A stretch of 64,000 nt of DNA from Thermoplasmatales archaeon (lineage in GTDB: Archaea; Thermoplasmatota; Thermoplasmata; Methanomassiliicoccales; Methanomethylophilaceae), in the NCBI GenBank assembly GCA_012520845.1, contig JAAYNL010000018.1, forward strand, positions 1 to 64,000, read 5' to 3'. This document shows positions 23,704 to 59,300 of the stretch, in pieces. A program made the translations under genes and the position numbers. Each line of letters opens with the position of its first letter. The first letter of the stretch is position 1. Under the pieces are notes generated by a model. That model had not been told where the DNA came from and ran no database searches. It saw nothing but the letters and a program-made list of their open reading frames with translations.

Positions 23704-25113
23704 ATGCGGAAACAGGTAAGGAATTCCTTCCTGTTCCTCGCGATAGCCGCCGCGACGGCGGTTTGCTGCGTCGCCACCTGCGCCGGTGACGGGATGGGAG
23801 AGGCGGCGGGAAGTTCAAACGGATTATTGTATAATCCAGATTTTATTGATACAAATCCAAAGATAATAATTAATTCGAATCTATACGATGCTTCATATCC
23901 TCTCGAGGAGACCTTCTATTTCATCATAGATTGTGATGGTTATGAAAACGAACATTTTGTTACATATGAAACGAGTGAAATTTGCGTGGAATATACTTAT
24001 GATGGAACTGTATTCTTATTTAGCAATTTGGTACCCGATGAAAACATACTAATCACAATACATTACACGCCACTTTGGTATGAGATTTCCTTCGATACTG
24101 TCGGAGGGTCGGAGTTAAGTCCAATTTTACGTGAATTTGGTAAAGCCTTACCTGATTTTGAAATCCCCACAAAAGAAGGATTTGTTTTTGAATATTGGAT
24201 TTTTAGAAATAAAAAACTTGTTAATAAGGAATTGATTAAACATCCAGGAAATGCAGTGTTAAAAGCGAAATGGATACAAGAAGAATATCCTTCCGACCCT
24301 GCTGAACCACCCGCTGATACGACTGATCCCTCGGGAGAAGCGGAAACCCCGTCCGGCACCGAAGGAACGCCGACCGATCCCGTGGAAGAACCTCCGGCGG
24401 ATGCAGAAGGAACGCCGACCGATCCCGTGGAAGACCCCCCTGTCAATCCCGTTGAAGACCCCGCGGTCGATCCCGTGGAAGAATCTCCGGCGGATGCAGA
24501 AGGAACGCCGACTGATCCCTCGGGAGAAGCGGAAACCCCGTCCGGCACCGAAGGAGCCCCGACCGATCCCGTGGAGGATCCCCCGGCGGATGCAGAAGGA
24601 ACGCCGACCGATCCCGTTGAAGACCCCGCGGTCGATCCCGTGGAGGATCCCCCGGTCGATCCCGTGGAAGAACCTCCGACGGATGCCGAAGGAACGCCGA
24701 CCGATCCCGTTGAAGACCTCCCGGCGGATGCCGAAAGAACGCCGACTGACCCTGTGAACGAATCTCTGGCGGAGCCAGTTGATTCCCCCACAAATCATAT
24801 TAGACCCCCTGCAGACACAGAAATTTATCCAACGGAACCTGTTGGTTCTACTTCCGATACAGTTAATCCGCATATAATTCTTACAAATCCTGAGAAATCG
24901 TTTACCGAGATTGAAGATTTTACTATAATTTTAAATGATGATGGAAATACAAATTTTTTCAATGAATCGGCTCAAATAATTCCACAGGAAGTTGAAAAAG
25001 AAATAGTAGGAATTGTCATTTTTATAGAACCAGAGGGCGTGTCCTTCACATCCGCCATGTTTGGCGCCCTCGCGTCCCTGGCCGGCGGGATCTGGGCCTA
25101 CCGCAGGTATTAA
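23704..25113 (+). CDS. Mosaic surface adhesin-like protein with InlB-type repeat and acidic Pro-rich stalk
   Basis: A 469-residue exported protein. Residues 1-30 form a signal peptide. About 115-190 contains one InlB/Listeria-Bacteroides-type beta repeat (YEISFDTVGGSELSPI...YWIFRNKKL...AVLKAKW). About 195-360 is a Pro/Asp/Glu stalk built from imperfect units such as TDPVEEPPADAEG. The C-terminus has a membrane helix and an RRY tail. Base composition is mosaic: the flanking parts (about 23820-24300 and 24790-25030) are AT-rich with codons unlike the window, while the stalk is GC-rich. This suggests recombination or transfer. A TATAAA-type box lies at 23670-23677. No sortase signal was seen. 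Confidence 0.78.
   Translation: MRKQVRNSFLFLAIAAATAVCCVATCAGDGMGEAAGSSNGLLYNPDFIDTNPKIIINSNLYDASYPLEETFYFIIDCDGYENEHFVTYETSEICVEYTYDGTVFLFSNLVPDENILITIHYTPLWYEISFDTVGGSELSPILREFGKALPDFEIPTKEGFVFEYWIFRNKKLVNKELIKHPGNAVLKAKWIQEEYPSDPAEPPADTTDPSGEAETPSGTEGTPTDPVEEPPADAEGTPTDPVEDPPVNPVEDPAVDPVEESPADAEGTPTDPSGEAETPSGTEGAPTDPVEDPPADAEGTPTDPVEDPAVDPVEDPPVDPVEEPPTDAEGTPTDPVEDLPADAERTPTDPVNESLAEPVDSPTNHIRPPADTEIYPTEPVGSTSDTVNPHIILTNPEKSFTEIEDFTIILNDDGNTNFFNESAQIIPQEVEKEIVGIVIFIEPEGVSFTSAMFGALASLAGGIWAYRRY
24301..24780 (+). repeat. Imperfect coding repeats of the adhesin stalk
   Basis: Repeats of 24 bp and multiples encode DPVE(E/D)(P/S)P(A/V)D- and EGTPTDP-type units; one larger block (GEAETPSGTEG...) occurs twice. 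Such arrays change copy number by slippage or recombination. Confidence 0.8.
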
Positions 25114-56732: not shown

Positions 56733-56847
56733 GTTCCGATATTGTCCGAAGTTTGGTTCCGACATTGTCCGAAGTTTGGTTCCGACATTGTCCGAAGTTT
56801 GGTTCCGACATTGTCCGAAGTTTGGTTCCGACATTGTCCGAAGTTTT
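56733..56847. repeat. Five tandem 23-bp palindromic repeats upstream of the DUF4143 ATPase
   Basis: Copies start at 56733, 56756, 56779, 56802 and 56825 with exact 23-bp spacing. Each contains TTCCGACATTGTCCGAA (first copy T for C at one position), a near-palindrome with arms TTC-GACA and TGTC-GAA, followed by GTTTG. No unique spacers separate them, so this is not CRISPR. The array ends in an AT-rich promoter region. Confidence 0.95.
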
Positions 56848-56848
56848 T

Positions 56849-56920
56849 TAAATTAAATCAAAAATTTTATATAACATAATAAGATATAAACAAATAAAAC
56901 ATAAATAAACATTTGATATT
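56849..56920 (+). promoter_or_regulatory. AT-rich promoter region of the DUF4143 ATPase
   Basis: A stretch of about 70 bp is nearly all A/T with a TATA-like TTTTATATAAC near 56864, in strong contrast to the GC-rich surroundings. Repeat copies lie on both sides, so transcription would start between them. Confidence 0.55.
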
Positions 56921-56931
56921 ATGGAACAGAA

Positions 56932-56977
56932 CTTCCGACATTGTCCGAAGTTTGGTTCCGACAAAGTCGGAAGCGAG
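56932..56977. repeat. Two further 23-bp palindromic units in the leader of the DUF4143 ATPase
   Basis: Unit six (56932-56954) repeats TTCCGACATTGTCCGAA. Unit seven (56955-56977) is TTCCGAC-AAA-GTCGGAA, a perfect dyad. Both keep the 23-bp period. They lie just before, or within the first codons of, the ATPase gene, depending on which start is used. Confidence 0.9.
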
Positions 56978-56980
56978 GTT

Positions 56981-58246
56981 ATGAAGAAATATATCCCGAG
57001 GATAATCGACAGCGTGTTGGAAACGAGACTGAGGAGGTCCGGAGCGGTCCTTATAAAGGGCCCGAAATGGTGTGGCAAAACAACAACCGCCTCGATGAGG
57101 TCGAAAAGCATACTGAACCTGCAAAATCCAAAAATGCGGGAAAAATACCTGGAAACGGCGGCTACGGATCCGCTGTCCCTCCTAGATGGCGACAAACCCA
57201 GATTATTGGACGAATGGCAAATCGCGCCCAATCTGTGGGACGCGGTGAGACAGGCCGTCGACTCCATCGGGAAGCCTGGTCAATTCATCCTAACGGGCTC
57301 TTCCGTCCCCCCGTTGGAGAAAGGGATGCACTCCGGCGCAGGAAGGATATCCGAACTGTTGATGAGGACGATGAGCCTTTATGAATCCGGGGATTCCAAC
57401 GGACGCGTTTCGCTCGGCAAACTATTCGAGGGACGTGGCGAACCGATCACGTCCCCTTCCGGCCTGGGTTTGGAGGACGTGGCGTTCTGCACCGTGAGAG
57501 GCGGTTGGCCCTTCGCCCTGACGCTGTCCGCGGATGACGCGACGAAAATCGCCGGGGACTACCTCGAGACCATAGTGAACCGCAACATTAGCGAAATAGA
57601 CGGGGTGACCAGGAGCCCCGCCAGGGTGTGGAAAGTAATCCGGTCCTTGGCCAGAAACACGTCCACCCCCGCGACGTTGGAAACCATCCGCAAAGACATG
57701 TCCGGAGACGGGATTCCGGTTTCGACGAAAACCATCTCTGAGTACCTGGGGGCGTTGGAACGGCTGTACGTCACTGAGAACCTCGAGGCATGGAGCCCCG
57801 CGCTTCGTTCGAGGACCGTGATGAGGGCTACGCCGAAAAGACACTTCACCGACCCGTCCATCGCTTGCGCAGCGCTCAGCGCGTCGCCCGAGGACCTGTT
57901 GCAGGACCGCAATACGTTCGGCTTTCTTTTCGAGTCCCTTTGCGTAAGGGACCTGAGGGTATACGCCGACGCACTCGAGGGCAACGTGTTTCATTACAGA
58001 GACAAGAACAACCTGGAGGTGGACGCCGTTGTTCACCTACGCAACGGCAAATGGGGCGCGGTCGAAATCAAACTGTCGCCCAGGGGCGTCGACGATGCGG
58101 CCGAGAACCTCAAGAGGTTTTCGGAGAAAATCAACCACGAGCGCATGAGGGAACCTTCCTTCCTCATGGTCCTCACGGTGGACGACTTGGCATACCGAAG
58201 GCAGGACGGGGTATACGTCGTTCCAATTGGCTGCCTTGGGCCATGA
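56981..58246 (+). CDS. AAA_14/DUF4143-type ATPase
   Basis: A 421-residue protein. Walker A is IKGPKWCGKTTTA (about 25-37), Walker B-like is RLLDEWQIAPNLWD (about 73-86) and a sensor is QFILTGSSVPP. A winged-helix-like middle (STPATLETIRKDMSGDGIPV) and the C-terminal DUF4143 nuclease-like region (HYRDKNNLEVDAVVHL...WGAVEIKLS) follow; D and ExK positions resemble a PD-(D/E)XK core. Such ATPases are common in gut microbes and their role is unknown. ATG 56981 (MKKYIPR) follows a GAGG ribosome binding site; ATG 56921 would encode repeat units as protein and is less likely. Confidence 0.82.
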   Translation: MKKYIPRIIDSVLETRLRRSGAVLIKGPKWCGKTTTASMRSKSILNLQNPKMREKYLETAATDPLSLLDGDKPRLLDEWQIAPNLWDAVRQAVDSIGKPGQFILTGSSVPPLEKGMHSGAGRISELLMRTMSLYESGDSNGRVSLGKLFEGRGEPITSPSGLGLEDVAFCTVRGGWPFALTLSADDATKIAGDYLETIVNRNISEIDGVTRSPARVWKVIRSLARNTSTPATLETIRKDMSGDGIPVSTKTISEYLGALERLYVTENLEAWSPALRSRTVMRATPKRHFTDPSIACAALSASPEDLLQDRNTFGFLFESLCVRDLRVYADALEGNVFHYRDKNNLEVDAVVHLRNGKWGAVEIKLSPRGVDDAAENLKRFSEKINHERMREPSFLMVLTVDDLAYRRQDGVYVVPIGCLGP

Positions 58247-58325: not shown

Positions 58326-58369
58326 GTTTCCCACAATATGAGAAACGTATTTCCCATATTGTGGGAAAT
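58326..58369. repeat. Tandem palindromes before the DUF4143 remnant
   Basis: TTTCCCACAATATG (58327-58340) and CATATTGTGGGAAA (58355-58368) form a perfect 14-bp inverted repeat with a 14-nt loop. The right half is itself a perfect palindrome, ATTTCCCA-TATTG-TGGGAAAT (58349-58369), and the left half is a weaker one (GTTTC...GAAAC). Form and placement parallel the 23-bp units upstream of the intact ATPase. Confidence 0.85.
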
Positions 58370-58411
58370 GCGATTCCTGTTTTGTGAAAAACACATCCGA
58401 CGTTATTCGTA

Positions 58412-58563
58412 AACCTTCTGTTGCTTTTTGAATCCCCTTACATCAGGGACCTCAGGGCATACACGAATGTATTGAAGGAAATGCGTTCCATTCTCATGGC
58501 CCTCACAGCCGGGGAATTGGCGTACGGAGGAGAGGATGGGTCTAAGTCGTTCCCCCAATCTCC
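58412..58563 (+). pseudogene. Remnant of a second DUF4143 ATPase gene
   Basis: The reading frame encodes LLFESPYIRDLRAYTNVLKE, which aligns with FLFESLCVRDLRVYADALEG of the intact gene at 56981, followed at once by MRSILMALTAGELAYGGEDG, which aligns with its C-terminal PSFLMVLTVDDLAYRRQDG. About 90 residues between the two blocks, including the putative catalytic residues, are missing, and everything N-terminal is gone. It is therefore a decayed paralogue with an internal deletion. Its sequence differs enough that it is not a recent duplicate. Confidence 0.75.
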
Positions 58564-58649
58564 CAGACAGCTTCGATACCGTCGAACACGTATCGTTATC
58601 ATAACCAGCGTGACCTGGCGACTGAAAAGTTCGGCGAGGATGATATGGA

Positions 58650-59300
58650 TTAGGTCCTTTTGAAACCGCGGAATATCCATTTACCGATGGAGTTCACGCC
58701 GTACTTCACGGTCATCTTCAACGTCCTGTGCTGGCACCAGATTTCCACGTTTTTGGATAGGACGGCCTCCATCACGTCCCGCCACGTCCCGCAGGTGTCT
58801 GGCAGCTCCACGAGACCCAGGCCTATGCTGGAAAGGCTGTGGGCGTCGCTCCCCGCGGAAACGGGCAGCCCCTTCCTCTCGGCGATCTTCATCGCCTTCC
58901 TGTTGGCGGCGGGGGAGGACCTGCGGTTCAACCCCTCGATGCCGTCGAACCCGTCGATTATGTCCTTTTCCTTGAGGCCCGACCATATCCGGTGGGGATG
59001 GGCGACGAAGGCGTACCCGCCGGCGGCGTGTATCGCGTCGACGGTGTCCTTGACGGACATCATGGACGGTATGTCCTCGGTCACGCCGTAGGCCAGGATG
59101 TGGCCCGCGTCGGAAGTTATCTCGATGCCCGGCACAATGATGATGCGGTCCTCGTCCTTGACGTCCAAATACCCTTGGATGGTGTTGTGGTCCATGATGG
59201 CGATGCACCCCAGGCCGAGCTCGATCGCCCTCTCGACGATCTCCCGCGGGGTGGCCTTGCCGTCGGAGCGGGTGCTGTGGATGTGCAGGTCGGCCTTCAT
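58650..59300 (-). CDS. PHP-domain metal-dependent phosphoesterase
   Basis: A 216-residue PHP protein. MKADLHIHSTRSDGKATP, AIMDHNTIQGY, FVAHPHRIWSG and SAGSDAHSLSSIG supply the metal ligands. The family includes phosphatases acting on small molecules or nucleotides; the substrate is not evident. ATG 59300 overlaps the metG stop (ATGA), so the two are co-translated. The open frame upstream is non-homologous. Confidence 0.88.
   Translation of the reverse strand: MKADLHIHSTRSDGKATPREIVERAIELGLGCIAIMDHNTIQGYLDVKDEDRIIIVPGIEITSDAGHILAYGVTEDIPSMMSVKDTVDAIHAAGGYAFVAHPHRIWSGLKEKDIIDGFDGIEGLNRRSSPAANRKAMKIAERKGLPVSAGSDAHSLSSIGLGLVELPDTCGTWRDVMEAVLSKNVEIWCQHRTLKMTVKYGVNSIGKWIFRGFKRT

Follow-up and report, generated by a model that had tools for sequence, protein, structure and literature searches.

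A repeat array on both sides of an ATPase promoter

The 64,000-nucleotide stretch of Thermoplasmatales DNA analysed here (henceforth the window) contains an array of 23-bp repeats next to an ATPase gene; the whole of our analysis of this locus is comparative. The gene (56981..58246, forward strand) encodes a 421-aa protein that Pfam searches, alignments and an AlphaFold2 model (mean pLDDT 92) place in subfamily A of the AAA_14/DUF4143 ATPases. Specifically, the protein matches both PF13173 (AAA_14; 49.5 bits, gathering score 27) and PF13635 (DUF4143; 121.5 bits, gathering score 28.1). Its AAA_14 domain carries Walker A residue K33 and Walker B residues D77/E78, a winged helix follows with its recognition helix at residues 249-261, and the DUF4143 domain is PD-(D/E)XK-like, with E318, D348, E362 and K364 as the catalytic-type residues. 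Since the Walker A/B residues and these four are invariant across 53 aligned sequences, the protein probably uses ATP and acts as a nuclease. A sequence search of the PDB returned no relatives of the ATPase. The closest solved folds to the model are the archaeal AAA+ ATPases 2qen and 2fna (best TM 0.44-0.52, for 2qen), with a Cdc6/Orc1-DNA structure (2qby, TM 0.27) and the STAND ATPases and MalT (8bob, TM 0.28) far behind.

Upstream of the gene, five 23-bp units lie head to tail at 56733..56847 (forward strand; TRF score 221, 98% matches). When numbered by the family logo described below, the core (positions 1-15) of unit 1 falls at 56737-56751 and that of unit 5 at 56829-56843. This first block is followed by an AT-rich stretch (56848..56931, forward strand), which its sequence and the geometry of the family mark as the putative core promoter. 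Of two TATA-like candidates, TTTTAAAT (56846-56853) stands at the offset from the last core that is usual for the family, and TTTTATATAA lies at 56865-56874. Two further 23-bp units form a second block (56932..56977, forward strand) in the interval between promoter and start codon. Seven units, with one period in both blocks and an AT-rich TATA region in between, had already been described by an earlier reading made from the letters alone (henceforth the sequence-only reading), and this description is correct, the blocks lying at 56733-56847 and 56932-56977. The second block makes the array two-sided, and its position downstream of the promoter is unusual among family members. An in-frame ATG at 56921 would place this block inside the coding sequence; the start codon of relatives corresponds to the site at 56981.

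The sequence-only reading had also assigned a TTC.GACA-TGTC.GAA dyad to each unit and treated it as the key feature. This was borne out for the last unit, a near-perfect palindrome (TTCCGAC-AAA-GTCGGAA), but not for units 1-6: units 2-6 (TTCCGACATTGTCCGAA) are imperfect dyads with a single arm mismatch, and unit 1 has an additional C-to-T change relative to them. We rejected the palindromic dyad as a conserved feature of the family and regard it as incidental, given that only 4 of 165 subfamily-A units reached the dyad score of the window array, a rate like that of shuffled units (1.8%). The idea that all units face one side of the helix is likewise at odds with the geometry. As 23 bp corresponds to about 2.2 turns, neighbouring units are rotated by some 70 degrees, and strict phasing is not supported. 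The two blocks are moreover out of mutual register, the distance from unit 5 to unit 6 being 107 bp, which is no multiple of 23.

We considered and rejected a CRISPR array, as the units follow one another head to tail at a 23-bp period without spacers. A search of the array for structured RNA gave no Rfam match above the gathering score, only chance hits to microRNA models far below it. The array is probably not transcribed, since in most relatives it lies upstream of a TATA-like or -10 signal.

Downstream of the ATPase gene, at 58327..58395 (forward strand), there is a second, degenerate array of three units that are spaced by 23 bp and have another sequence (TTTCCCACAATATGAGAAA..., TTTCCCATATTGTGGGAAA... 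and ATTCCTGTTTTGTGAAAAA...). It is followed at 58421..58660 (forward strand) by the remnant of a decayed second ATPase paralog, detected by BLASTP between sequences as two collinear fragments that match ATPase residues 316-333 (E = 2e-4) and 393-415 (E = 0.002). Elsewhere in the window, a long imperfect tandem repeat with periods of 45, 93 and 189 bp (24320-24773) possibly encodes a repetitive protein region.

Array period follows the protein subfamily

The 1.38-Mb genome to which the window belongs has 29 DUF4143 genes on many contigs. Many of them have phased upstream repeats of their own, which differ in sequence from gene to gene and whose period tracks the subfamily of the protein: 23 bp in subfamily A, 32-34 bp in B and mostly 39-42 bp in C. 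With the relatives from other genomes included, the periods are 22-24 bp for A, 32-34 bp for B, and 39-42 or about 52 bp for C. Several genomes of the same taxonomic family are free of any DUF4143 gene, so the 29 copies represent a strong lineage-specific expansion.

We gathered subfamily-A genes from 100 genomes of that taxonomic family and retrieved their flanks. For the 71 A genes that had enough DNA upstream, the best self-match lag (searched between 12 and 70 bp) was 23 bp in 57, 24 bp in 8, 22 bp in 2 and 45 or 46 bp in 3. A best lag of 22-24 bp with a score of at least 14 was found in 90% of the subfamily-A 250-bp upstream regions, including that of the window gene; the same combination occurred in none of the 350 dinucleotide shuffles, in none of the 57 other open reading frames of the window, and in 2.7% of the regions downstream of the same genes. 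When strong signals were compared between subfamilies, 91 of 93 in A (109 genes examined) fell at 23, 24 or 46 bp, and all 35 in B at 32-34 or 64-66 bp; in C, all 15 signals with a score of at least 13 (37 genes) fell at 39-42 or 51-52 bp. Units of subfamilies B and C conserve the core only: their linkers differ, and the spacing stays constant.

Besides archaea, the window ATPase has relatives among the Firmicutes, Bacteroidota, Spirochaetota, Actinomycetota, Mycoplasmatota and Proteobacteria. Plasmids (those of Bacteroides, Collinsella and others) also carry relatives, as do viral contigs and a few phage records. In a set of mostly bacterial loci, in which the relatives from genome contigs were the best-scoring 80 rather than a random sample, 80 of 84 showed a strong array signal, at 22, 23 or 46 bp in 78 of these 80. 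Loci on viral contigs have 23-bp arrays (the best lag was 46 bp in one), and a homologue on a Bacteroides ovatus plasmid (NZ_CP041396.1) has the array unit AAGCCAAACTGCCGAATAATATT. The other subfamilies behave in the same way: 33 bp was within the top two lags for 6 of 7 B genes on bacterial plasmids, and 40 or 51 bp was found for 5 of 6 plasmid C genes, part of these signals being weak. Given that archaeal, bacterial, plasmid and viral members share the same periods, the period is a property of the protein subfamily and not of the organism. An array accompanying the ATPase is a general rule, of which the window array is one instance.

Copy number and array form vary within subfamily A. One archaeal gene (L133) is preceded by at least 13 nearly perfect 23-bp units, and two Treponema ATPases that are 99% identical (L254 and L255) have an identical unit in 3 and 4 copies, respectively. 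Many of the array-less A genes appear to form a sub-group with one long common palindrome: L025, L026, L027, L028, L029, L031 and L170 share a palindrome of approximately GTAAAATTTGnAGTnnAACTnCAAAATTTAC upstream of the ATG across genomes, and perhaps represent a lineage with a single operator.

Each tested array is private to its gene

The exact window unit does not occur again in its own 1.38-Mb genome, and a degenerate 17-bp pattern allowing two mismatches gave only single, scattered matches there, at about the rate of a reversed control. Its tandem form is absent among the 100 relatives, and a 19-bp stretch of it had no match in the viral contigs. The sequence-only reading had held that scattered copies with no link to DUF4143 genes would speak against it; the repeat was not found in the rest of the genome, in the 100 relatives or in the viral contigs. 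What regularly precedes DUF4143 genes is a gene-specific array and not, as had been suggested, the dyad itself. We also rejected a regulon scattered over the genome, as the units of three arrays of this genome were found only at their own genes. When array divergence was compared at equal protein identity, paralogs within a genome and genes from different genomes showed a small, inconsistent difference.

Residues of the ATPase covary with bases of the unit

We built a subfamily-A logo from 635 units of 165 genes at 23 bp, phased automatically; the phasing is wrong in a few genes (L213/L214 and L105/L109), which weakens the covariation signal. The unit has a skeleton of nnnCAAnnnnnnnA and then an A-rich linker, which surrounds gene-specific bases. 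Specifically, C4, A5, A6 and A14 are strongly conserved and positions 17-20 form the A-rich linker, with variable bases at positions 1-3 and 8-13. Bases 8-13 are 89-96% constant inside one gene, whereas two random genes agree at only about 25-34%, a pattern that looks like that of a specificity determinant.

The four protein-DNA pairs with the highest background-corrected mutual information were residue 342 with base 3, residue 250 with bases 12 and 13, and residue 342 with base 2. When 91 archaeal and 73 bacterial genes were analysed separately, both sets recovered 342-3, 250-12, 250-13 and 343-1 among the top pairs. The resulting code is chemically sensible, in that Lys and Arg go with G, and Asp and Glu with C. 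For example, G12 accompanied K250 in 41 of 44 cases and R250 in 5 of 5, C13 accompanied H248 in 12 of 12 and N250 in most, and G13 accompanied D248 in 26 of 31; K342 went with G2C3 in 55 of 68 cases, and D or E at this position with C2G3 in 8 of 12. The window pair obeys the code, with its specificity residues K250 and K342 going with G12 A13 and G2, respectively.

We then asked how well these residues pick the true unit of an ATPase from decoys. With close relatives left out, the AUC was 0.87 (permuted pairings gave 0.51, and variable residues drawn at random 0.54); as the residues behind this value were chosen on the same data set, the figures across domains are stricter, with an AUC of 0.75 when trained on archaea and tested on bacteria (0.50 after shuffling) and 0.79 in the opposite direction. 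Among the subfamily-A ATPases of the window's own genome, 4 of 5 (the window gene included) gave their own array the top score, L016 being the exception. The two disjoint sets, the random-residue controls and the permutations argue against shared ancestry as the source of the covariation, although they cannot fully exclude it.

In the model, residue 250 lies at the start of the recognition helix of the winged helix, and residues 342/343 form the tip of a beta-hairpin in the PD-(D/E)XK domain. This hairpin probably reads bases 1-3 and runs directly into the strand of D348. The two contact regions would lie about 10 bp, or one helical turn, apart on DNA. Because residues 250 and 342 covary with bases of the unit, the ATPase itself very probably binds its own array.

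Arrays mark the upstream edge of the promoter and suggest autoregulation

In archaeal members, TATA-like octamers peak 2 to 4 bp past the last core, with the ATG at a median distance of 34 bp. For 25 of the 73 bacterial genes, against 8.5 expected by shuffling, the best -35/-10 (sigma-70) pair begins 3-8 bp past the last core; the promoter geometry of bacterial members is variable, with -10-like sites at several offsets. In both domains, the array thus adjoins the core promoter on its upstream side.

We consider it likely, from these comparisons of sequence, that the window array is the cognate, gene-specific site of the downstream ATPase and that it most probably serves autoregulation, with repression more probable than activation. 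The case for autoregulation rests on the array lying at the promoter and on the three arrays of this genome each occurring only at its own gene. The lean towards repression comes from the variable promoter geometry in bacteria and from the window units downstream of the promoter, even though a position upstream of the core promoter would suit an activator as well as a repressor. The proposal of the sequence-only reading, that the units make up a cooperative operator array to which the ATPase itself may bind, is well supported by the family-wide arrays in two domains and by the residue-base covariation.

In the mechanism that we infer, each protomer would read a single 23-bp unit in two places, separated by about one turn of the helix. 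The recognition helix of the winged helix would read bases 8-13, with residues 248 and 250 taking bases 12-13, and the PD-(D/E)XK hairpin (residues 342/343) would read bases 1-3. Protomers may align cooperatively along the phased units, in an assembly that the AAA+ fold suggests is ATP-dependent. As the array extends with its last unit up to or into the core promoter, the ATPase gene would be autoregulated, presumably by repression, and the paralogs of one genome would keep separate addresses through joint changes of protein and array.

A tentative alternative is positive autoregulation by a switch of the MalT/STAND type, in which protomers would stack along the units up to a final one in contact with RNA polymerase or TFB, so that the response would be all-or-none. 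MalT and other STAND regulators are ATPase-type proteins that act on direct repeats beside promoters; MalT controls other genes and has no nuclease domain. The present arrays resemble such systems in that, in archaea and bacteria alike, direct repeats of one orientation run up to the upstream end of the promoter, and STAND/NLR-type ATPases and MalT are among the distant fold neighbours of the ATPase. On the other hand, promoters of the bacterial members lack a fixed geometry, as would be more in keeping with a repressor, two units lie 3' of the promoter of the window gene, the MalT fold match is weak (TM 0.28), and the tested units are found only at the ATPase's own gene.

Relation to anti-phage defence candidates

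The window ATPase matches, over residues 1-419, the PADLOC model PDLC04790 (E 4.5e-70) of PDC-S01, a single-gene phage-defence candidate with proteins of the same type (AAA_14 plus DUF4143, a COG1373-type ATPase). Models of PDC-S01 also cover subfamilies B (PDLC04786/04792) and C (PDLC04787). PMC12988326 ranks PDC-S01 fourth among the most common defence candidates of prokaryotes and describes an ATPase fused to a domain of the PD-(D/E)XK superfamily; in a global survey of the rumen, no other individual locus was reported to be as frequent (PMC13356809). We found no account of its mechanism. In PMC12988326, our searches for promoter, autoregulation and winged helix were negative, and repeats are mentioned there in unrelated contexts. 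A wider search on DUF4143, COG1373, AAA_14 and PDC-S01 returned one paper that mentions DUF4143 and no upstream repeats in open-access papers, the source paper of the PDCs lying outside that search. The cis arrays, their subfamily-specific period and the recognition code therefore appear to be unreported in the open-access papers searched.

These matches raise the further, rather unlikely possibility that the array serves as a self-address or restraint of a nuclease: the ATPase would be held on it in an inactive or licensed form and set free when infection disturbs the complex. This would fit the match of all three subfamilies to PDC-S01 models, the invariance of the PD-(D/E)XK catalytic-type residues, and the closeness in sequence of the residue that reads bases 2-3 to the putative catalytic Asp348. 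It would also fit the patchy, multi-paralog and cross-domain occurrence of the family, including plasmids and viruses, and the confinement of every tested unit to its own gene. However, the defence activity of PDC-S01 has candidate status, validation being pending for most PDCs (PMC12988326), and the genes adjoining the window ATPase do not resemble defence genes. We regard as similarly doubtful a selfish or defensive module of two parts, in which an ATPase-nuclease would be locked to a private address that acts as a restraint or self-mark beyond its role as an operator, with paralogs diversifying address and reader jointly.

Relation to repeat-binding systems of mobile elements

It is improbable that the array belongs to a former mobile element as an iteron-type site for replication or partition, its initiator (of the Rep/iteron or Orc1/Cdc6-like kind) being the ATPase. 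In the iteron-Rep systems of plasmids, the gene of the binding protein stands next to its tandem units, which each span some two helical turns and have private specificity, and the present arrays share this unit size, placement and private specificity. Phased repeats and AT-rich DNA beside an AAA+ winged-helix gene, and the many plasmids that carry the family, would agree with such a role. By contrast, the present arrays are chromosomal, lie at the core promoter and accompany up to dozens of paralogs per genome (here 29 DUF4143 genes spread over many contigs of a 1.38-Mb genome), and the spacing of their cores from promoter and start codon is conserved. Orc1/Cdc6 on origin DNA (2qby), which is among the fold neighbours, is alike in combining AAA+ and a winged helix that reads DNA repeats; the window protein differs in its PD-(D/E)XK-like domain, and the overall fold similarity is weak (TM 0.27). 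In partition operators of the ParR/parC type, repeat clusters flank the promoter on both sides, as they do in the window, but ParM and ParR genes are missing here and the two-sided layout is atypical for the present family.

Since binding by the ATPase is a prediction from sequence, another protein (a host regulator or partner) could instead occupy the array, which we consider very unlikely: a single factor could not read the differing arrays of one genome, seven annotated class-A neighbourhoods have no partner gene in common, and residues of the ATPase covary with the DNA bases. Neutral tandem duplication through replication slippage is scarcely credible as an explanation, for although copy number varies and the 3 and 4 units of L254 and L255 indicate that slippage does occur, the B and C units conserve the core and the spacing but not the linkers, the period tracks the protein subfamily, and unit bases covary with protein residues.

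A predicted DNA ligand for a widespread protein family

Returning to the reading that we prefer, a gene-specific and probably autoregulatory site of the ATPase, the arrays supply a predicted DNA ligand for nearly every PDC-S01-type gene, and the table of residue-base pairs makes this ligand partly predictable from the protein sequence. Binding, control and nuclease action thereby become directly testable. The family would provide DNA-binding proteins that differ naturally in specificity and follow a simple code common to archaea and bacteria.
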